Virus record (IMG/VR): IMGVR_UViG_3300008050_000168
Span: 1 to 32,282 of that record
Strand: one strand, 5' to 3'
Source: a virus
DNA length: 32,282 nt
Shown here: piece by piece, positions 8,028 through 32,282 of the stretch
How the letters are laid out: the number at the start of each line of letters is the position of its first letter
Numbering within the stretch: position 1 is the stretch's first letter
The notes under the pieces: model-generated
Seen by the model: only the letters and a program-made list of their open reading frames with translations
Database searches by the model: none
What the model was told of the DNA's origin: nothing
Made by a program: the position numbers and the translations under genes

Positions 8028-9737
8028 ATGCCCTTCAACTACGGAACAGGAATCACCGATCACATCGGGATGCTCGATGCGCTGACGACTGTCGTCACGT
8101 CGGACTATGTCGATACGGCAGTCGTGGCTGGCGGCGGTGGCGGCACCGGCTACACCGTGGGCGAAGTCTTGACCGTCGCAGGCGGTACGGTCGCCGCGAC
8201 CACTGGCGGCGTCGCTGCGCTGCTGGAGGTGACGAGCGTCTCCGGTGGAGCGATCGACGGCATCCGCGTCTTGCGTGCAGGCACATATACATCTAACCCG
8301 GCGACGTCCAACTCTCCGACCACGACCGGCAACGACTGGACAGGTACGGTGCTATCCAGCGGCAACGACGACTGCACCATCACGTTGACCATGGGCACCG
8401 CGACGTGGGCAGTGAACCGACGCACGCAGGAAGCCGCCAGCGCCGCAGTGGGCACCTCGGGCACCGGCTACAACATCGGCGACATCCTGACCCTGACTGA
8501 TGGAGGTACGACCATTCACGGCGACGTCGACAGTGTGGGTACGCAAGGCACCACCGCCACATTCACGGTCGCGACACTGACCGGCGGCGCGGGTACTGGC
8601 GTGGCCACGGTGACCGTACTGGAGGCAGGCAACTACGAAGAGGTTCCCGCCAACGACGTGGGCACCACCAACGACGGCAGCGGCGACGATGCCTGCGAGC
8701 TAACTGTTACTTGGCAGGATGGCACGAAAACCAATAACGACTTCCAGGTCTGCATGCTGGAAGGCGAAGGCTCGGCAGGCACCGACGAAATTCACGTGGT
8801 GATCAAGGCATACGCCCTCGCCAACGGCTTTGATACCGCATTCAATTGGGCACTAATGGGCTGCACTGGCTACAACTCTGGGCTCCCGCTTCAGGTGCAG
8901 CCCGGTATCAACTCCAGCACATCCGGTGCCCAGATTCATACCACGAGCGGCGCACTGCCTACTACTGACACAGGTGCCTACATCGCACTGAAGGATACCA
9001 GCGAAGGCGCAAACATCGAGTGGTGGATCAACCACACCGGCCGACGCATTGTCCTCGTGGCGAAATGCGCGCACGGCGGTGGCGTGACCTACTCCAGCTG
9101 CTACTTGGGATTCCTGAACCAGTTCGGCACCGACACGGAATACCCCTATCCTCTCTGGGTCTCTGGCGGCTTCGCTGAGTCGAACCACATCTGGACAGAA
9201 ACAAACGAGCTTCTGGGCGGCGTGACTGAGGTCTTCGACCGCACGAGCACCGCATCCCAGACGACGGGCGGCGGATGGGTTCGTACTCCCGCAGGTGCAT
9301 GGCAGGCCCATGCGTGCGCAGGGTCAACCAATGCGTCCATCCGCACGGTAAAGTCCGACCATGGGATCTACCCCTACTTCACAGCATGGCCGAGCACTGA
9401 GCCCACCGCAGGCACTGGCGACGTCGGCTGGGCATTCGCTGCTGACGAGATGATCCCGGCGACCTTGGCAGGTGCGACACCTGATCTACTGCTACAACCT
9501 ACACCCGGCACCGGTGATGATTACTACTGGCTGGTGGCTCCTGCACTAATGGTACGCGACACGTGGCCGACGTCATATACGCAGTACGGTGAGATCGACG
9601 GCGTCTTCTGGTTCTCCGGTGGCCTTAGTGGCCCCGTCGCCGAGGACCGCTTCGAGCTTACATCCAAGCGTTACCGGATCTTCCAGAACGGAAACCAGAC
9701 GGAGTCGTACAGCTACTTCGCAATGGACGAGGACTAA
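8028..9737 (+). CDS. Tail protein with duplicated Gly-rich domain
   Basis: This 569-residue protein begins one base after the tape measure stop. Residues about 31-131 and 138-230 are two copies of one domain with the pattern GTGYTVGEVLTVAGGT and GTGYNIGDILTLTDGGT, each followed by a 'VLRAGTY/VLEAGNY' strand and an acidic Cys-containing end. This 'GYxxGDxL' module recurs in phage tail and fibre proteins. The C-terminal part is aromatic and Gly-rich and ends YGEIDGVFWFSGGLSG, AEDRF and YRIFQNGN, resembling the end of the next protein. A distal tail or side-fibre role is likely. Receptor specificity cannot be stated. Confidence 0.7.
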   Translation: MPFNYGTGITDHIGMLDALTTVVTSDYVDTAVVAGGGGGTGYTVGEVLTVAGGTVAATTGGVAALLEVTSVSGGAIDGIRVLRAGTYTSNPATSNSPTTTGNDWTGTVLSSGNDDCTITLTMGTATWAVNRRTQEAASAAVGTSGTGYNIGDILTLTDGGTTIHGDVDSVGTQGTTATFTVATLTGGAGTGVATVTVLEAGNYEEVPANDVGTTNDGSGDDACELTVTWQDGTKTNNDFQVCMLEGEGSAGTDEIHVVIKAYALANGFDTAFNWALMGCTGYNSGLPLQVQPGINSSTSGAQIHTTSGALPTTDTGAYIALKDTSEGANIEWWINHTGRRIVLVAKCAHGGGVTYSSCYLGFLNQFGTDTEYPYPLWVSGGFAESNHIWTETNELLGGVTEVFDRTSTASQTTGGGWVRTPAGAWQAHACAGSTNASIRTVKSDHGIYPYFTAWPSTEPTAGTGDVGWAFAADEMIPATLAGATPDLLLQPTPGTGDDYYWLVAPALMVRDTWPTSYTQYGEIDGVFWFSGGLSGPVAEDRFELTSKRYRIFQNGNQTESYSYFAMDED

Positions 9738-16912: not shown

Positions 16913-16940
16913 TTGCCTTTCCGCGAGAATGGGGTATAGT
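16913..16940 (+). promoter_or_regulatory. Array promoter 1 (TTGCCT-16-TATAGT)
   Basis: -35 TTGCCT at 16913-16918, a 16-base spacer, -10 TATAGT at 16935-16940. ATG begins 10 bases after the end of the -10 box (9 bases between), so transcription starting at the usual distance would give a leader of only about 0-4 bases. An in-frame ATG at 16929 lies inside the promoter and is rejected as the gene start. Confidence 0.75.
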
Positions 16941-16949
16941 CCTGGCGAT

Positions 16950-17195
16950 ATGAAAAACGCAACAGCAGCCCAGGCTCGTAAAGCCCTCGATCAAGTCCGT
17001 AACCTCGCCCCCATGTTTCGCATCCGGTGCGGCGAGTCCCTCGACCACATGGCCACCTGCGACGACTTCCAGGTCCAGTTCGATGCGTGCAGCGATCTCG
17101 CCGACACTGGGTGCAGGCGTGCCCAGCTGATCATCTCGCTACTGGTTGACGCAGCCGTCGACCGGCGCGAGGACCTCTCCTTCCTGAACCTCTAG
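16950..17195 (+). CDS. Small array protein, unknown function
   Basis: This 81-residue protein begins MKNATAAQARKALDQVRNLA. It has four cysteines (RCGES, TCDDF, ACSDL, GCRRA) and a C-terminal hydrophobic helix (QLIISLLVDAAVD). I recognise no family. The start is set by the promoter directly upstream, which leaves almost no mRNA leader; ATGAAAAAC is shared with other array genes. It is the first gene of the array, separated from the tail operon by a terminator, and is followed after nine bases by the lipoprotein gene, probably on the same transcript. Confidence 0.7.
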   Translation: MKNATAAQARKALDQVRNLAPMFRIRCGESLDHMATCDDFQVQFDACSDLADTGCRRAQLIISLLVDAAVDRREDLSFLNL

Positions 17196-17748: not shown

Positions 17749-17776
17749 TTGCCTATCCGTGAGAGTGGGGTATGGT
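17749..17776 (+). promoter_or_regulatory. Array promoter 2 (TTGCCT-16-TATGGT)
   Basis: -35 TTGCCT at 17749-17754, 16-base spacer, -10 TATGGT at 17771-17776, then ATCACCGTC and ATG at 17786. The segment from -10 to codon 3 (ATCACCGTCATGAAAAAC) is identical in array promoters 3 and 4. Confidence 0.75.
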
Positions 17777-17785
17777 ATCACCGTC

Positions 17786-18160
17786 ATGAAAAACTCACTA
17801 GCACACAGAACCGACGTCCAGTCCCGCGCCCAGTCCTCCGTCCTTGTTCAGTTCGAGGTCGACGGATTCCGCACTAACCTCGGCGGCAGCGTCTTCGACG
17901 GCGACGTCGAGATGGTCGTCGAGATCACGACCAACCCGCAGGGAGCCCGCCCCGGCGCGCTGATGGTCCTGAAGGCTGACGCAGCCGACAAGCTCGGCCT
18001 GGGCTGCAAGCCCACCATCGTGAACGTAGTGGCCCGCCCGGTGAACTCCGAAGGCTACGTCCGCCCCGGCGGTATGATGGACGGCGCATTCCTGCGCAGC
18101 TCGGATAGCCGCTGGCCCCTCACCACGCCCTGCCCCATCCACGACCGCTTCGAGTTCTAA
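17786..18160 (+). CDS. Small array protein, unknown function
   Basis: This 124-residue protein starts MKNSLAHRTDVQSRAQSSVL. It looks beta-rich in the middle (SVLVQFEVDGFRTNLGGSVF, DVEMVVEITTNPQ) and ends in PCPIHDRFEF. No family is recognised, and there is no signal peptide or membrane span. The start is fixed by the upstream promoter, with ATG nine bases after the -10 box; an in-frame ATG-less upstream start at 17759 would overlap the promoter. It is followed by the first hairpin-type leader. Confidence 0.65.
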   Translation: MKNSLAHRTDVQSRAQSSVLVQFEVDGFRTNLGGSVFDGDVEMVVEITTNPQGARPGALMVLKADAADKLGLGCKPTIVNVVARPVNSEGYVRPGGMMDGAFLRSSDSRWPLTTPCPIHDRFEF

Positions 18161-18177
18161 ATCGAGAAACTGAAAAA

Positions 18178-18217
18178 GGGGCTCCAGTTCCTGGGGCCCC
18201 CTGCCGAAGAAGGGTAT
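18178..18217 (+). promoter_or_regulatory. Hairpin leader copy 1
   Basis: GGGGCTCCAG pairs with CTGGGGCCCC (10 bp including one U-G) around a TTC loop, followed by 17 bases ending GCCGAAGAAGGGTAT and the ATG at 18218. AAGAAGG is the ribosome-binding sequence. A-rich sequence precedes the hairpin, so on the minus strand it would look like an intrinsic terminator. Confidence 0.8.
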
Positions 18218-18547
18218 ATGAAGAACAACACAGCGCACAAACTCGTCGACCCTTACGGGGAGACCGGATCCATCACCTTCACCAGCAACGGCACGACCGT
18301 CGAGGTCAGCCAGAACTGTCACCCCGACCTGCCCGCGACGGTCACCACGCTGTCGGTCCACGTGGCCCGCGACGCATACCGCGCAGCAGTCGCCCAGGGC
18401 ATGGTCCCGGCACCCTCGGCTGACGGCATGCCGCAGACCAAGGCAGAATGCGACGCGCAGACCGCTCGCCGCAGCAACCGGAACCGCGCGTCGAAGGCCC
18501 GCTGGAACCGCTCGGAAGAGATCCGCAGCCAGAACCGGATATTCTAA
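18218..18547 (+). CDS. Small array protein with basic C-terminus
   Basis: This 109-residue protein starts MKNNTAHKLVDPYGETGSIT. The middle has HVARDAYRAAVAQGMVPAP. The C-terminal 30 residues are strongly basic (RRSNRNRASKARWNRSEEIR), which could bind nucleic acid. No family is recognised. It is expressed behind hairpin leader copy 1, and its TAA overlaps the next ATG by one base, so it is coupled to the following gene. Confidence 0.65.
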   Translation: MKNNTAHKLVDPYGETGSITFTSNGTTVEVSQNCHPDLPATVTTLSVHVARDAYRAAVAQGMVPAPSADGMPQTKAECDAQTARRSNRNRASKARWNRSEEIRSQNRIF

Positions 18548-18828
18548 TGCACACTTGGACAAAACTACCGTCTTGGACTGGTCGCACAGCTCGGTCTACG
18601 AAGACCGTGCTGCCCTGCGGGTCCACCTTGAAGATCGTCCAGACAAAGGCATACAGGGAAGCCTGGGGGCGGTCCACGACTGTCCTGCGCTGCACGGCTG
18701 TCCTGATCGCACAGGGTGCGATCAGCATAGGTGCCCCGCACCTCAACCTGCACGCAACCCGTATTCCCGCAGCTAGGGTCGAGGCCCTCGCGTGGGCATC
18801 TGCTCGGATTGAGACGCCCGAGGAATAA
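18547..18828 (+). CDS. Small array protein, unknown function
   Basis: This frame gives 93 residues from the ATG that overlaps the previous stop (TAATG), beginning MHTWTKLPSWTGRTARSTKT. The C-terminal half has an Ala/Ile-rich helix (TTVLRCTAVLIAQGAISIG). No family is recognised. The 1-base overlap and the following hairpin leader at 18838 bound the gene neatly, which supports it as real. The frame is somewhat Arg/Thr-rich, so some doubt remains. Confidence 0.5.
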   Translation: MHTWTKLPSWTGRTARSTKTVLPCGSTLKIVQTKAYREAWGRSTTVLRCTAVLIAQGAISIGAPHLNLHATRIPAARVEALAWASARIETPEE

Positions 18829-18837
18829 ATGAAAACA

Positions 18838-18875
18838 GGCTCCAGATCCTGGGGCCCCCTGCCGAAGAAGGGTAT
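18838..18875 (+). promoter_or_regulatory. Hairpin leader copy 2
   Basis: GGCTCCAG pairs with CTGGGGCC around an ATC loop, followed by GCCGAAGAAGGGTAT and ATG at 18876. The outer pairs are shorter than in copy 1, but the core stem and the whole ribosome-binding segment are unchanged. Confidence 0.78.
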
Positions 18876-19061
18876 ATGGGAAAGTTCATCACACTACTAA
18901 ACGACCTGGGCGACGAGGTCATCTTCACTCTAGTGGCACTCAACCGCGTGGAGGTCTACAACACCCGCGAAGCCGTGGCCCACGTCGTGGACTGCGACAC
19001 GGCCAGCGCCATGCAGGCCGCGCACTTCGCCGACGGCTGGAAGCTGAAGATCACCAAGTGA
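18876..19061 (+). CDS. Very small array protein, unknown function
   Basis: This 61-residue protein begins MGKFITLLNDLGDEVIFTLV and ends ADGWKLKITK. It looks like a compact alpha/beta or beta-hairpin fold, with VAHVVDCDTASAMQAAHFAD in the middle. No family is recognised. It has its own hairpin leader (copy 2) and is followed by array promoter 3, so it is a separate expression unit. Confidence 0.62.
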   Translation: MGKFITLLNDLGDEVIFTLVALNRVEVYNTREAVAHVVDCDTASAMQAAHFADGWKLKITK

Positions 19062-19099
19062 CCCGAAGCGGGACACGAAAAAGAAACTGGACAAATAAC

Positions 19100-19127
19100 T
19101 GGCACATCCCCGAAACCGGGGTATAGT
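19100..19127 (+). promoter_or_regulatory. Array promoter 3 (TATAGT, weak -35)
   Basis: -10 TATAGT at 19122-19127 with the shared ATCACCGTC before ATG at 19137. The -35 position reads TGGCAC, a poorer match than TTGCCT. The spacer contains the dyad CCCCG-AAAC-CGGGG, as in promoter 4, which may be an operator. Confidence 0.68.
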
Positions 19128-19136
19128 ATCACCGTC

Positions 19137-19388
19137 ATGAAAAACAACAAACAAATCGCCAAGATCACCGCCGACTTCCTCTGCAAGCGTTACGACCTGG
19201 AATCCACCGAAAGCGTCCTCGTCGTCGACGGCACTGTCCAGATCTCCCTGAAGAACGGCGACCTGCTCCTCGACTGGTACGACTACCCGCAGTCCATCTT
19301 CGACTTCATCGGCGACTTCGGTGACGACTACCCCGAGCTGCTGGTCGACATCAAGAACCCCGGCTGCCTGACCGTCTCCAACGTATAA
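19137..19388 (+). CDS. Small acidic array protein
   Basis: This 83-residue protein starts MKNNKQIAKITADFLCKRYD and is strongly acidic in the second half (DWYDYPQSIFDFIGDFGDDY). It has no signal peptide or membrane span. Small acidic phage proteins often act as inhibitors or DNA mimics of host enzymes, but nothing in the sequence proves this here. It starts from array promoter 3 with almost no leader. Confidence 0.65.
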   Translation: MKNNKQIAKITADFLCKRYDLESTESVLVVDGTVQISLKNGDLLLDWYDYPQSIFDFIGDFGDDYPELLVDIKNPGCLTVSNV

Positions 19389-19415
19389 CGAGACACCCTC
19401 GAAATAAATAAAAAC

Positions 19416-19454
19416 GGGCTCCAGTTCCTGGGGCCCACTGCCGAAGAAGGGTAT
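19416..19454 (+). promoter_or_regulatory. Hairpin leader copy 3
   Basis: GGGCTCCAG pairs with CTGGGGCCC around TTC, followed by GCCGAAGAAGGGTAT and ATG at 19455. An A-rich run (AAATAAATAAAAAC) precedes it. Confidence 0.8.
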
Positions 19455-19691
19455 ATGAAAGTCATCACCGAAATCGAAACCACGCTCGAAAACCTGCTCG
19501 CTCCCATCACCCTCGCATTGCGTGCCAAGAAGCTGCCCTGCGATCTGCTGGACCACCGCATCAAGACGGGCGACCTCGCTGGTGTCCTGTCCGCACTGGA
19601 CATCGCTACCCAAGACGTCGGCGACGACGACTTCGCGAAGGGTGCCATCAACATGGCGCGCTGCCTCGTCGAGTCCCTGGAGGTCGCATGA
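19455..19691 (+). CDS. Small helical array protein
   Basis: This 78-residue protein begins MKVITEIETTLENLLAPITL. It appears wholly helical, with a 'DLLDHRIKTGDLAGVLSALD' block and a C-terminal helix. No family is recognised. It sits behind hairpin leader copy 3, and its TGA overlaps the next gene's ATG (ATGA), so the two are translationally coupled. Confidence 0.63.
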   Translation: MKVITEIETTLENLLAPITLALRAKKLPCDLLDHRIKTGDLAGVLSALDIATQDVGDDDFAKGAINMARCLVESLEVA

Positions 19692-19930
19692 TATACCTCT
19701 ACATCAACGACCGCGGCGAGCTATTCGCCGACGACACCTTCCTCGCATCCCGTGGACTCAACGCCGAAGACCTGAAGCGGGCGACCGCGTTCTTCGCTGC
19801 GCGACCGACCGCGGGCCTGGGCTGCTCGTCGAGCATCGACTTCCCGGAAGACTTCGGTGGTCCCGACGTGAGGCACCTGGATAAATTCCTGATGAAAGCG
19901 ACAACCGGCTACAGTTTTGGCAGCCGGTAG
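19688..19930 (+). CDS. Small array protein, unknown function
   Basis: This 80-residue protein begins MIYLYINDRGELFADDTFLA. It starts within the stop of the previous gene. Its final codons (TTGYSFGSR, then stop) are encoded by the same DNA that forms hairpin leader copy 4 of the next gene, so coding and RNA-structure needs overlap there. No family is recognised. Confidence 0.62.
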   Translation: MIYLYINDRGELFADDTFLASRGLNAEDLKRATAFFAARPTAGLGCSSSIDFPEDFGGPDVRHLDKFLMKATTGYSFGSR

Positions 19931-19944
19931 CCGAAGAAGGGTAT
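19904..19944 (+). promoter_or_regulatory. Hairpin leader copy 4 (overlaps coding sequence)
   Basis: ACCGGCT pairs with AGCCGGT (7 bp) around an 11-base loop that keeps part of the ACAG core. The ribosome-binding segment GCCGAAGAAGGGTAT then precedes ATG at 19945. Compared with the other copies, the outer bases changed on both arms (GGGGC/GCCCC to CCGGC/GCCGG), so pairing is kept while sequence differs. Confidence 0.75.
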
Positions 19945-20394
19945 ATGAAGAACAGCAACGCACGCCACACTCTGAGCAAAAAAGACGGCCAATGGATCCG
20001 AGGCGCTTACAGCTTCCAGGTCGAAGGCCCCGGTCAGATCGCCGTCTGGAGCCTATACGGCGAGACGACCGAACTGATGGCCACCGAGGAGGCCCGAGGG
20101 CTCTATCGCAGCCTGATCGCTGACGGCTACACTGGCGACACCGGCCCCGGAAATCAGTACTTCGTCTCTGCTGGTTCCCAGACGATCGACGCCGACCACC
20201 GCATGGCCGAAGCGATCAGGATCGCCGACATCCGCGTCGCGAGCATCGAGTCCTTCCGCTACGATACGGTCGACGCCGAGCGCGACCGGAAGCAGGAGGC
20301 AGACTTCCGTAGGAAGTTCCTCGGCGCGCTGGTCGAGCAGTACGCTGCGACGGGTGCCCCGATCAAAGCCTACAGCGGTAAGTGGTCCAAATAG
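19945..20394 (+). CDS. Array protein, unknown function
   Basis: This 149-residue protein starts MKNSNARHTLSKKDGQWIRG. Residues about 20-50 look like strands (AYSFQVEGPGQIAVWSLYGE), followed by helices (HRMAEAIRIADIRVASIESF) and a charged C-terminal helix (ERDRKQEADFRRKFLGALVE). It is the largest protein of the array. No family is recognised, and there is no membrane or export signal. It has leader copy 4 upstream and copy 5 downstream. Confidence 0.65.
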   Translation: MKNSNARHTLSKKDGQWIRGAYSFQVEGPGQIAVWSLYGETTELMATEEARGLYRSLIADGYTGDTGPGNQYFVSAGSQTIDADHRMAEAIRIADIRVASIESFRYDTVDAERDRKQEADFRRKFLGALVEQYAATGAPIKAYSGKWSK

Positions 20395-20406
20395 AGAAAA
20401 CGAAAA

Positions 20407-20446
20407 GGGGCTCCAGTTTCTGGGGTCCCTTGCCGAAGAAGGGTAT
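20407..20446 (+). promoter_or_regulatory. Hairpin leader copy 5
   Basis: GGGGCTCCAG pairs with CTGGGGTCCC (two wobble pairs) around TTT, followed by TTGCCGAAGAAGGGTAT and ATG at 20447. The C-to-T change in the 3' arm turns a G-C pair into G-U, so pairing is preserved. Confidence 0.8.
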
Positions 20447-20680
20447 ATGAAGAACAGCAAACAGCAATACATCGTCACCGAAGCAGTCACCCTGGACGCC
20501 GACACCCGCAGCCCGATGACCTTGGTCGTCGGCGACGTCCACGAGCTGGTCGTGATCACCGACGATCGGTGCATGGTACAGATCGGGTCCCGTCAGCTCT
20601 GGTGGCGCTACGACGCCGAAGGCAACATGATGACCCAGGATGAGGCAGGAAACGATTTTCCTTTCGAGCTGGTGAAATAA
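20447..20680 (+). CDS. Small array protein, unknown function
   Basis: This 77-residue protein begins MKNSKQQYIVTEAVTLDADT. It looks like an all-beta barrel-type fold (MTLVVGDVHELVVITDDRCM, QLWWRYDAEGN). The start is chosen at 20447 because the hairpin leader and ribosome-binding site lie directly upstream; an in-frame start at 20354 would sit in the previous gene. No family is recognised. Confidence 0.65.
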   Translation: MKNSKQQYIVTEAVTLDADTRSPMTLVVGDVHELVVITDDRCMVQIGSRQLWWRYDAEGNMMTQDEAGNDFPFELVK

Positions 20681-20694
20681 ACCGCACGTAGAAT

Positions 20695-20722
20695 TTGCCT
20701 TTCCCCGAAACCGGGGTATAGT
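20695..20722 (+). promoter_or_regulatory. Array promoter 4 (TTGCCT-16-TATAGT)
   Basis: -35 TTGCCT at 20695-20700, spacer with the dyad CCCCG-AAAC-CGGGG, -10 TATAGT at 20717-20722, then ATCACCGTC and ATG at 20732. This is the best match to the array promoter consensus. Confidence 0.8.
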
Positions 20723-20731
20723 ATCACCGTC

Positions 20732-21058
20732 ATGAAAAACACCAGCCAAACAACCGCCGACCGCTCGAAGAAGACCCTGACCGCAGTGTGCGCAGCCACC
20801 TGCCCCGGCTTCACCGTCGACCGCATCGCCATGGTCGCCATGCAGCCCAAGGTCCGCAACCTGATGGCCCTGGCCAACCGAGGCGGCGTGCCGAGCGACC
20901 GCGAGCTTGTCACCGCCATGGTAAACTTCGAGTGGATGGTCGACGACCTGATGGTCCCCGCAGCAGGTGCCAACGGCCGCCACCGTCAGGGCCAGATCCT
21001 GAAGGGATACCGCAAGGCATTCGAGATCGTGCGCGCGAAGGTCGCCCAGACATCATGA
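20732..21058 (+). CDS. Small helical array protein
   Basis: This 108-residue protein begins MKNTSQTTADRSKKTLTAVC. It is helical (MQPKVRNLMALANRGGVPSD, then ELVTAMVNFEWMVDDLMVPA) with a basic C-terminus (RQGQILKGYRKAFEIVRAKV). No family is recognised. It is expressed from array promoter 4 with nearly no leader, and is coupled by ATGA to the HicA-like gene. The pair could be an antitoxin-like/toxin-like unit by position alone, but this protein does not show the HicB fold. Confidence 0.63.
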   Translation: MKNTSQTTADRSKKTLTAVCAATCPGFTVDRIAMVAMQPKVRNLMALANRGGVPSDRELVTAMVNFEWMVDDLMVPAAGANGRHRQGQILKGYRKAFEIVRAKVAQTS

Positions 21059-21482: not shown

Positions 21483-23035
21483 AGTGCAGCATATGCGGCG
21501 TGGAGATGGACGGCGAGACTGCCGACACTAAGGACTTCGGCGGCGACTGCGCGAAGTGCATGCGCGAAGCCACTGGTGGGCAGCTCGACGACTGGGAGCT
21601 GAACCCTGTCCCGTATGACCATCAGCGATTCATCTGGGAGCAGTCCAAGGACCTTGAGGGGTTCGCGTACTGGTGGGAGATGGGATGCGCCAAGACGGCG
21701 CCCACGATCTGGACCGCGGCGCACCTCTTCACCGAAGGTAAGATCGACGGCCTGCTGGTGCTGGCTCCGAATGGAGTGCATGCCAACTGGACGGTCGAGG
21801 AGATCCCCGACCATATGCCTGCCGACATCGCTGCGCGTATGTCTTGCATGACGTGGTATTCAAAGAAGGCCAAGAACAAAAGCACGCAGAAGGAGCTGGC
21901 CAAGCTGCTCAAGTTCGACGGGCTCGCTGTCCTTGTCGCAAGCTACGATGCGATCATGACGCAGCTGGGCGGGCAGGCGATCAAGTCATTCCTCCAGAAG
22001 CGGAAGTGCCTCTACGTGCTTGACGAGTCCGGCAGGATCAAAGGCCCTGGTAGTAAGCGCACCAAGCGCGTGAACGCCAGCAGTAGCTACGCAGACTACC
22101 GACGCATCCTGACAGGTACGCCGATCGACAACGCCCCGCTGGACATCTACACGCAGACGCGATTCATCTGCCCCGAGGTCTGGGTCGACATGGGCATCCG
22201 CAACTTCTCGCAGTTCAAGATGCGGTTCGGCATCTGGGAGCAGCGCAAGACCTCAACGGGTGGGCGATTCGAGGCGCTTGTCCGCTACCGTGACCTGCAC
22301 ATCCTGAAGGAGATCGCGGCAGCGGTGGGCGACCGCAGACTGAAGGCCGACGTGCTCGACCTGCCCGAGAAGATCTACACCCGCCGCACCTTCGACCTGA
22401 ACCCCGAACAGCGCCGCGTCTACAAAGCCCTGGAGGAGGAATACTTCACCGAGCTGAAGGACGGCTCCGAGGTGACCGCCGACTTGGCCATCGTCCGCAT
22501 GCTGCGCATGTCACAGATCGCCAGCGGCTACGTGGGCAACGACGAAGACGAGCTTGTCCCCCTGGGCGAGAATGTCCGCATGAAGTGCCTGAAGGATACA
22601 CTCGAAGACATCACTGGCAGCGTCATCATCTGGGGCAGGTACAACTGCGAGATCGACGCGATCCGCGAGATGCTGGGCGAGAAGGACGCGGTGTACTACG
22701 ACGGCCGCACAAGCGACGAGGACAAGGCGGCCGCGCTGGTGAAGTTCCAGCGCGAGGGCAGCGTCCGGTTCTTCGTGGCGAAGCCCAGCGCAGCAGGCGA
22801 GGGTCTGACACTTCACCGAGCCAAGACGATGATCTACGTCTCGAACAGCTTCAGCCTGCGCGAGCGGCTCCAGTCCGAGGACCGTGCTCACCGTGCAGGT
22901 ATGTCCCACGAGCCCGTGACATATATCGACCTCGTGGCAAAGAACACCCTCGACGCCTATATCCTCCAGTCCCTTCGCAAAAAGAGAAACCTCGCCGCAG
23001 AAATTACTGGAGACAACTTGCCTTCCTGGGCATAG
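21479..23035 (+). CDS. SNF2-family DNA helicase/translocase
   Basis: The start at 21479 (MKCSICGVEM) overlaps the previous stop and gives 518 residues. An N-terminal zinc site is formed by C3/C6 and C24/C27. The ATPase core follows: WWEMGCAKT (residues 65-73, Walker A), LDES at 181-184 (motif II), LTGTP at 211-215 (motif III), and in the second lobe VIIWGRYNCEID, VAKPSAAGEGLTLHRA and SEDRAHRAGM (motifs IV-VI). Walker A reads GCAKT instead of GxGKT, and motif II reads DES instead of DEAH. Phage SNF2 proteins act in replication or recombination. Confidence 0.88.
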   Translation: MKCSICGVEMDGETADTKDFGGDCAKCMREATGGQLDDWELNPVPYDHQRFIWEQSKDLEGFAYWWEMGCAKTAPTIWTAAHLFTEGKIDGLLVLAPNGVHANWTVEEIPDHMPADIAARMSCMTWYSKKAKNKSTQKELAKLLKFDGLAVLVASYDAIMTQLGGQAIKSFLQKRKCLYVLDESGRIKGPGSKRTKRVNASSSYADYRRILTGTPIDNAPLDIYTQTRFICPEVWVDMGIRNFSQFKMRFGIWEQRKTSTGGRFEALVRYRDLHILKEIAAAVGDRRLKADVLDLPEKIYTRRTFDLNPEQRRVYKALEEEYFTELKDGSEVTADLAIVRMLRMSQIASGYVGNDEDELVPLGENVRMKCLKDTLEDITGSVIIWGRYNCEIDAIREMLGEKDAVYYDGRTSDEDKAAALVKFQREGSVRFFVAKPSAAGEGLTLHRAKTMIYVSNSFSLRERLQSEDRAHRAGMSHEPVTYIDLVAKNTLDAYILQSLRKKRNLAAEITGDNLPSWA

Positions 23036-30773: not shown

Positions 30774-31264
30774 TCTACCTGCGCGAAGCGTCCAACGTCG
30801 AACGCTGTCACACCCTCCCCCACCATGGCAGCTATACCGTCGGCAAGCATAGCTACGACGCGGTGATGCTGCTGCTGGCGCTGAAGCCTGACGCATCACT
30901 GAACCTAATCAAGGCCGTGCTCTACCACGACCTGGGCGAACGGTTCACCGGCGACATGCCCTGGCCTGCGAAGCGTGCCGACGGCGAGATGGCCAAGCGG
31001 CTGGATCAATTCGAGGCACGTGCCCGTAACTTCCTCGCCCTGGGCGTCAAGCTCGACAGCGAGGAGCGGCGCTGGCTGCACGCAGTCGATCAGGTCGAGA
31101 TGCTGCTCTGGTGTAAGGATCAGCTCGGCCTGGGCAACATGAACGCGGCCAGCATAATCGGCGGCCTACTCTCCAGCCTGAACCATTCCGACCTGCCGCA
31201 GGTGGTGACAGAGTTCATCAATTCCCATACCTGGACAAGAAATCCTGATGTCTTGCCTTCTTGA
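30752..31264 (+). CDS. HD-domain nucleotidase (YfbR-like)
   Basis: ATG 30752 gives 170 residues; a GTG at 30731 would add seven. The sequence has RCHTLPHHGSYTVGKHSYDA with metal ligand H33, HD at 59-60 in YHDLGERFTGDMPWPAK, and a later LHAVDQVEML with the last Asp ligand. The 'HD..E..tGD.P.P.K' string is typical of YfbR-type 5'-deoxynucleotidases. It would remove phosphate from deoxynucleoside monophosphates and so balance pools made by the reductase and the synthase-like enzyme. It overlaps the previous gene by 22 bases. Confidence 0.83.
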   Translation: MHPADRVVYLREASNVERCHTLPHHGSYTVGKHSYDAVMLLLALKPDASLNLIKAVLYHDLGERFTGDMPWPAKRADGEMAKRLDQFEARARNFLALGVKLDSEERRWLHAVDQVEMLLWCKDQLGLGNMNAASIIGGLLSSLNHSDLPQVVTEFINSHTWTRNPDVLPS

Positions 31265-31281
31265 GATGCGTGCGGTATACT
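31253..31281 (+). promoter_or_regulatory. Array-type promoter before the polymerase (TTGCCT-17-TATACT)
   Basis: -35 TTGCCT at 31253-31258, 17-base spacer, -10 TATACT at 31276-31281, and ATG 31288 six bases later. It overlaps the last codons of the HD-domain gene, so the polymerase can be made independently with almost no leader. Confidence 0.72.
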
Positions 31282-31287
31282 TCTGCC

Positions 31288-32282
31288 ATGGCAATACCGA
31301 TATTCACCCCGCGATCAAACTGGAAGCCGACCCCGATCTCGCAGCTGCCGCAGTGGCCCGAGCATGGTCGCGTAGGCTTCGACCTTGAGACCAAGGACCC
31401 GATGCTGACACAGCTCGGCCCCGGCGTCCGTCGAGGCGGTAAGGTGATCGGCATCGGCTTCGCCATTGAAGACGGGCCCAGCCACTACATCCCCATCGGC
31501 CACGAGAACGGAACGAACCAAGACGCAGCCCATGCGTGGCAGTACCTGCGCGATCAAGCTGCCCGATTCAAGGGCGCGATCGTGGGCGCGAACCTACCCT
31601 ACGATCTGGACTACTCCGCGGAGAACGGCGTCGAGTTCGGCTGCGATCTCTTCGACGTGCAGGTGGCCGAGCCGCTGCTGGACGAGCTGCAATTCTCGTA
31701 CAGTCTGGACAACGTCGCGAAGCGGTGGAAGATCCCCGGCAAGGACGAGACGCATCTGCTGGCCGCAGCTAAGGCATGGGGCATCGACCCGAAGGCTGGC
31801 ATGTATGAGCTGCCGCCCGAGCACGTGGGCCCCTACGCAGAGCAGGACTGCCGCCTGCCGCTCCAGATCCTGCGACGACAGGAGCGCGCACTGGAGGCCG
31901 CTGGCCTGATGGATGTCTGGCGTCTCGAATCGAAGCTTCTGCTGGTACTTCTCAAGATGAGACGCAGGGGCGTGCGCATCAGCTTCGACCGCCTGGATCA
32001 GGTAGCGATCTGGGCACGCGAGCAGGAGATCAGCGCACTGTCGCGAATCAACCATGCAGTCGGCGCAAGGCTGACGCCCGAGGACACGACCAAGGCCAGC
32101 GCCCTGGGGCCTATCCTACGCGAGCTGGGCCTGGATGTCCCGCAGACGGAGAAGACCAAGAAGGACAGCGTCAAGACGCCCTGGCTTCAATCCTTAGACC
32201 ATCCGGTCGCCAAGGCGATGATCGCTGCCAAGAAGTTCAACAAGCTGCGCACGACGTTCGTGGAGTCCATCAGGACGCACGC
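31288..32282 (+). CDS. Family A DNA polymerase, N-terminal exonuclease part (partial)
   Basis: The frame is open to the right edge, giving 331 complete codons. It begins MAIPIFTPRSNW. The 3'-5' proofreading exonuclease motifs are present: FDLETKD with D32 and E34 (Exo I), GANLPYDLDY with N102 and D106 (Exo II), and YAEQDCRL with Y183 and D187 (Exo III). After that comes the linker/thumb region (LESKLLLVLLKMRRRGVRIS). The polymerase palm motifs lie beyond the window. It is the replicative polymerase of the phage and has its own array-type promoter. Confidence 0.93.
   Translation, partial: MAIPIFTPRSNWKPTPISQLPQWPEHGRVGFDLETKDPMLTQLGPGVRRGGKVIGIGFAIEDGPSHYIPIGHENGTNQDAAHAWQYLRDQAARFKGAIVGANLPYDLDYSAENGVEFGCDLFDVQVAEPLLDELQFSYSLDNVAKRWKIPGKDETHLLAAAKAWGIDPKAGMYELPPEHVGPYAEQDCRLPLQILRRQERALEAAGLMDVWRLESKLLLVLLKMRRRGVRISFDRLDQVAIWAREQEISALSRINHAVGARLTPEDTTKASALGPILRELGLDVPQTEKTKKDSVKTPWLQSLDHPVAKAMIAAKKFNKLRTTFVESIRTH

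Follow-up and report, generated by a model that had tools for sequence, protein, structure and literature searches.

A short leader, made up of a GC-rich hairpin and a conserved start block, recurs directly before the start codons of at least 12 open reading frames within about 46 kb of what appears to be a single phage. Our preferred reading, to which we give a probability of about 55%, is that it is an intercistronic ribosome-binding leader acting in the mRNA, with the hairpin marking or protecting a message boundary. A testable function at the level of RNA is indicated by a dozen near-identical leaders before unrelated genes and by the compensatory changes in their stems.

Leader copies and their start block

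The window (the whole 32,282-nucleotide stretch analyzed, IMG/VR record IMGVR_UViG_3300008050_000168) contains five copies of the leader, at 18178, 18838, 19416, 19904 and 20407, all on the + strand (Table 1). A first-pass annotation made from the letters alone had pointed out these five; each was recovered, and the family proved larger, with seven further copies on the IMG/VR contig L001 (IMGVR_UViG_3300008050_004817) bringing the total to at least 12. The layout is an A-rich stretch (A fraction 0.59 in the 17 bases lying 58 to 42 before the ATG), a GC-rich stem-loop, GCCGAAGAAGGGTAT, the ATG and an open reading frame. All 12 copies lie on the + strand, in one orientation and immediately before an ATG.

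Do the two contigs belong together? The last 123 bases of the window are identical to the first 123 of L001 and the same gene continues across the join, so L001 is very probably, to judge from this overlap, the contig that follows in the genome of the same phage; the two records appear to be one genome split at assembly. The divided gene, DNA polymerase I by gene order, occupies window positions 31261-32282 and goes on in L001 at 1-1027. The order of the capsid, tail, helicase, ribonucleotide reductase, thymidylate synthase, polymerase, deaminase and primase genes is that of PaMx11 (Mesyanzhinovviridae), and the replication genes are ordered as in Pam3 and RHph_TM26 too. GC content is 61%. A single-protein search with the helicase yielded no relatives, which were subsequently recovered by an alignment-based search; the nearest records are IMG/VR contigs whose capsid protein is 80-92% identical, and the array region had no DNA-level match among GenBank phages.

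Table 1. Positions of leader elements, the genes behind them and repeated promoters in the window
Feature	Position	Strand	Detail
Repeated sigma-70-like promoter	16913..16940	+	gene 16950-17195
Repeated sigma-70-like promoter	17749..17776	+	ATG 10 bases after -10 box; gene 17786-18160
A-rich tract, copy 1	18160..18177	+	from sequence
Hairpin, copy 1	18178..18200	+	10 pairs, 3-base loop
Start block GCCGAAGAAGGGTAT, copy 1	18203..18217	+	conserved block
Small gene, copy 1	18218..18547	+	109 aa, no family
Hairpin, copy 2	18838..18856	+	8 pairs
Start block, copy 2	18861..18875	+	conserved block
Small gene, copy 2	18876..19061	+	61 aa, no family
Repeated sigma-70-like promoter	19099..19127	+	CCCCG/CGGGG in spacer; gene 19137-19388
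Hairpin, copy 3	19416..19436	+	9 pairs
Start block, copy 3	19440..19454	+	conserved block
Small gene, copy 3	19455..19691	+	78 aa, no family
Hairpin, copy 4	19904..19928	+	7 outer pairs, 2 compensated; within last codons of preceding ORF 19688-19930
Start block, copy 4	19930..19944	+	conserved block
Small gene, copy 4	19945..20394	+	149 aa, no family
Hairpin, copy 5	20405..20431	+	12 pairs, one G-C to G-U
Start block, copy 5	20432..20446	+	conserved block
Small gene, copy 5	20447..20680	+	77 aa, no family
Repeated sigma-70-like promoter	20695..20722	+	gene 20732-21058

The start block is the most constant part of the element. The string CCGAAGAAGGGTATATG is exact in all five window copies and present on the + strand only, where 0.01 occurrences would be expected by chance even with up to three mismatches, and GCCGAAGAAGG-N4-ATG is nearly letter-identical throughout the 12. 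Three of the seven L001 copies have GGTACTATG in place of GGGTATATG (i.e., GAAGAAGG-TACT-ATG rather than GAAGAAGG-GTAT-ATG), and the distance to the ATG is unchanged. Among the 12 copies, the 18-base core has a mean pairwise identity of 92% and the hairpin block one of 70%, compared with 29% upstream and 34% downstream. The block is also kept more strictly than the hairpin, since two of the L001 copies have a weak or absent hairpin. Its Shine-Dalgarno match is moderate (about -5 to -6 kcal/mol), and its conservation, which includes GCC and an exact spacing, exceeds what that pairing involves. Judged by position and conservation, these are very likely genuine translation starts with the element as their leader, which supports the earlier suggestion of an mRNA leader. 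Elsewhere in the window, several structural and other genes (1742, 5306, 8028, 12512, 16282 and 29408) begin without an upstream Shine-Dalgarno match, which may hint at a host that makes little use of this signal.

How far does the family extend? An exact-pattern search of IMG/VR matched L001 as the sole other contig. The looser pattern GCCGAAGAAGG-N4-ATG occurs in at least 119 stretches; among the matches listed, all except L001 resemble chance matches inside genes, and one contig taken up as a possible member (L134) proved to be such a match in AT-rich coding DNA. Comparison of the window with the Rfam 15 families gave no covariance-model score above the gathering threshold.

Pairing of the hairpin

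A strong hairpin, with a stem of 7-12 pairs and a loop of 3-7 bases, stands before the start block in 10 of the 12 copies; the exceptions, where it is weak or absent, precede the L001 ATGs at 9534 (m2) and 10751 (m3). Its 3' arm lies about 17-19 bases before the ATG, and the structure sits close behind the preceding stop codon, with the A-rich stretch in front of it. Single-strand folding gives 10, 8, 9, 9 and 12 pairs for window copies 1 to 5. The first-pass annotation had noticed that the outer bases of copy 4 differ and still pair, and that copy 5 carries a wobble-preserving change. Both statements hold: copy 4 has C-G where the others have G-C at two outer positions, and copy 5 has G-U where the others have G-C. 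In the two copies with a 4-base loop, the 3' arm is shifted by one base and pairing is retained.

Is the RNA structure itself selected, as was proposed from these changes? We aligned the 12 copies without gaps and compared a 10-pair stem with 500 shuffles, which ignore the kinship of the copies. Paired cells amounted to 78.3% as against 72.2% in the shuffles (0/500 as high, for 12 paralogous copies from one phage), pairs changed on both sides numbered four against a shuffled mean of 1.1 (4/500 as high), and the covariation score was 0.174 against 0.085 (0/500 as high). The true register of the stem scored above every slid-register control. Part of the counted two-sided changes are chance pairs contributed by the outlier m2; compensation is clearest in window copy 4, at its two outer pairs, and in m3, at one inner pair. 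Eleven of the 12 stems keep a U-G pair (the remaining one has U-A), and G-U pairs are found elsewhere in the stem too; this favors an RNA read from the + strand, because the opposite strand would have A-C mismatches at these places. Summed folding energies agree in direction (-169 kcal/mol for the plus strand, -146 for the minus). From these base changes it seems that the RNA fold as such has been kept, and the hairpin probably acts as RNA. The proposal of selection thus stands as far as compensation among the copies and the better pairing of the plus strand carry it; all 12 being paralogous and in one phage, the stem changes could partly be drift among duplicates.

If the hairpin is an RNA structure, it does not seem to serve simply by shielding the ribosome-binding site. 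Predicted opening of the start block averaged 0.62 with the hairpin and 0.62 when its pairs were penalized (P = 0.91). With predicted access the same in either case, the role of a simple insulator is disfavored.

Transcription units and competing explanations

A second repeat, TTGCCT-N16/17-TATAGT, resembles a sigma-70 promoter. The pattern matched 14 times over the two contigs, in the window at 16913, 17749, 19099, 20695, 23018 and 31253 and on L001 between 5214 and 13503; the search found L001 only and no cellular genome. The ATG mostly lies 6 or 9 bases past the -10 box (a 24-base leader follows the repeat at 23018), and the message would therefore be nearly leaderless; the first genes behind these promoters are likely leaderless. 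Several of the repeats hold CCCCG/CGGGG in the spacer. The units follow a simple grammar, in which a promoter-led gene comes first and up to three hairpin-led genes follow before the next promoter. Hairpin copies never stand directly after a promoter, and are always inside a unit between same-strand genes. Genes that overlap their neighbor often carry an ordinary GGAGG site. The hairpin copies were also considered as promoters in their own right and set aside: no -35 element is suitably spaced, and where a -10 would be expected three copies read TACT.

The genes behind the leaders are mutually unrelated beyond their first few codons, which often read MKN, and comparison with PHROG and Pfam assigned them to no family, barring one weak PHROG match of unknown function. 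A pair of paralogous small genes, with 50% identity over 36 amino acids, joins the two kinds of front end: the copy at window 19137-19388 lies directly behind a promoter repeat, and that at L001 9635-9862 lies behind a hairpin-led ORF of 32 codons (L001 9534-9632). It is as if promoter and hairpin front ends were interchangeable.

These observations can be assembled into a model of the preferred reading, that of an intercistronic leader in the mRNA. Each promoter unit would be transcribed into a polycistronic mRNA, the first gene of which is translated with next to no leader, and the start block would let ribosomes load independently on each internal gene. The hairpin would fold just beyond the ribosome footprint and mark the cistron boundary; its position would suit either a message boundary or a site for a protein. 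The message might be cut, at a guess, in the A-rich stretch, and the hairpin would most likely stabilize the resulting RNA ends, so that internal genes would persist as hairpin-capped messages. A known case is the gene 32 mRNA of T4, from which processing by RNase E gives a stable species (a work cited in PMC3014915). That stability at message boundaries is the main job of the hairpin is our tentative inference, held at somewhat less than even odds. The genes behind the leader are small, unrelated and often begin with MKN, so the leader may in addition serve as a uniform front end on gene cassettes that can be exchanged.

Several other explanations compete with this one. The inverted repeat could be a DNA operator for a dimeric phage protein, placed beside a strong ribosome-binding site, as has been proposed for the extended start-associated sequences (ESAS) of Cluster K mycobacteriophages. 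There the original description saw little evidence that the repeats pair as RNA (PMC3203893) and later work located SigA-like promoters in them (PMC11373665); the promoter repeats of our phage and of its relative G001 likewise have inverted repeats in the spacer. The hairpin copies, however, have no recognizable -35/-10 pair at a workable distance, they fold better on the plus strand than on the minus, and, besides other G-U pairs, they keep a T-G pair, asymmetric as DNA yet paired as RNA, in all 12 copies but one, which has T-A. We regard a DNA site as rather unlikely.

Unlikely, too, is a phage or host RNA-binding protein that reads hairpin plus start block, switching the twelve genes jointly at the level of translation. 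In its favor are the conservation of the start block beyond Shine-Dalgarno pairing (GCC and exact spacing) and the folding of that block, in most copies, into a small stem-loop, UGCC-GAAGAA(G)-GGUA, which is suggestive at most and has A-U instead of G-U in one copy. Against it, two copies lose the outer pair of the small stem, the letters of the hairpin loop vary (TTC, ATC, TTT, ATCC), and no candidate protein was found. The same low credence goes to a broader version, in which the twelve leaders form one translational regulon under a phage-encoded RNA-binding protein or ribonuclease that reads the hairpin and the start-block loop and sets translation or stability for all these genes together, the leader doubling as the exchangeable front end of a cassette.

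The leaders might instead be neutral leftovers, the ends of recently duplicated cassettes under no selection, in keeping with their confinement to one genome and absence from relatives; the near-identity of the start block between fully diverged flanks, the compensatory changes, and the single orientation, always at a start codon, make this very improbable. A stable GC stem right behind stop codons, and an A-rich stretch that would be a U-tract on the minus strand, suggest intrinsic termination, either of the gene upstream or of antisense transcription. Such a terminator is hardly credible given that the plus strand has no U run after the stem, that the minus-strand stem is weaker and that a terminator scan flagged none of the five window hairpins on either strand.

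Relatives and known start-associated repeats

Is the leader shared with related phages? A covariance-model search of phage genomes, which the first-pass annotation had recommended, gave no copy in seven GenBank relatives or in G001 and G002, two close relatives with long records, and no convincing copy in 65 further related virus records (G004-G068), where the best E values were 0.6-2; some of the records are fragments. The relatives have start-associated repeats of other kinds. The string AGAAANGGAG precedes starts 8 times in Pam3, 9 in PaMx11, 11 in RHph_TM26 and 4 in SN1 (reversed control 0, 1, 0 and 0), often behind a GC-rich hairpin in the first three and not in SN1; we found no published description of this SAS-like repeat in the four phages. 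In addition, G001 (IMGVR_UViG_3300024520_000060) has about 18 copies of AAAAGAAAACGAGGTCAAAGTAGCCCCGGGTCAGATCCCGGGGTACACTGTACCC-ATGAAGAA at about 29.1-37.2 kb (L229:9108-17164), which resemble leaderless promoters, contain an inverted repeat in the spacer and in each case lead into a small MKN or MKK gene; the same check of five other relatives revealed no such repeat. The habit of repeating a start element is thus common to some relatives, and this particular leader is, in the collections searched, private to one phage. Different repeats in comparable places of related phages suggest that standardized gene front ends arise repeatedly, and such front ends may help small genes to move between phages.

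The Pam3, RHph_TM26 and PaMx11 blocks are like ours in that they belong to phages with a related replication-gene order and occupy gaps before starts, often behind a GC-rich hairpin; they differ in the start block itself, and their hairpins are not repeats of one sequence. The G001 repeats are similar in that about 18 of them are associated with starts, contain an inverted repeat and precede small MKN/MKK genes, and in sharing the design of the window's promoter repeats. Unlike the leader, they are promoters that end at the ATG, without a start block like GCCGAAGAAGG.

In actinobacteriophages, repeats of this start-associated kind have been on record since 2011 with no agreed role. The impression in the first-pass annotation that no element of this form had been described was mistaken, because the class is known from Cluster K (PMC3203893) and from Microbacterium Clusters EF and EG (PMC7302621). 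The Cluster K start-associated sequences (SAS) are repeats at the ribosome-binding position, with an inverted repeat upstream in the ESAS. Ours resemble them in several respects: a short asymmetric block, always in one orientation, occupies the ribosome-binding position before many genes (12 copies), its conservation goes further than the Shine-Dalgarno pairing, and an imperfect inverted repeat lies directly upstream in 10 of 12. In sequence they part: the Cluster K SAS is GGGATAGGAGCCC, with an AGGAG core, accompanied by 17-base repeats, and ours is GCCGAAGAAGG-N4, with moderate anti-Shine-Dalgarno pairing. The ESAS carry a SigA-like promoter, whereas here promoters are separate repeats, with none at the hairpins, and here the inverted repeat pairs as RNA. 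Nor did we find the conservation across related phages typical of Cluster K (G001, G002 and 65 further records, some of them fragments). The EF SAS/ESAS and the 18-base inverted repeats of EG, as far as the excerpted account in PMC7302621 describes them, likewise put a repeat into the short gaps ahead of start codons, at a distance of 14-22 bases in EG as compared with about 17-19 here; their sequences are different (GGGAAAGGACCCC; GATCAACCNNGGTTGATC), and no RNA covariation is described for them in that excerpt. Because of its differing sequence, its promoter elsewhere and its RNA-type covariation, we call the leader SAS-like and do not count it as a member of the SAS; these three features are what is new, in a class that was already known.
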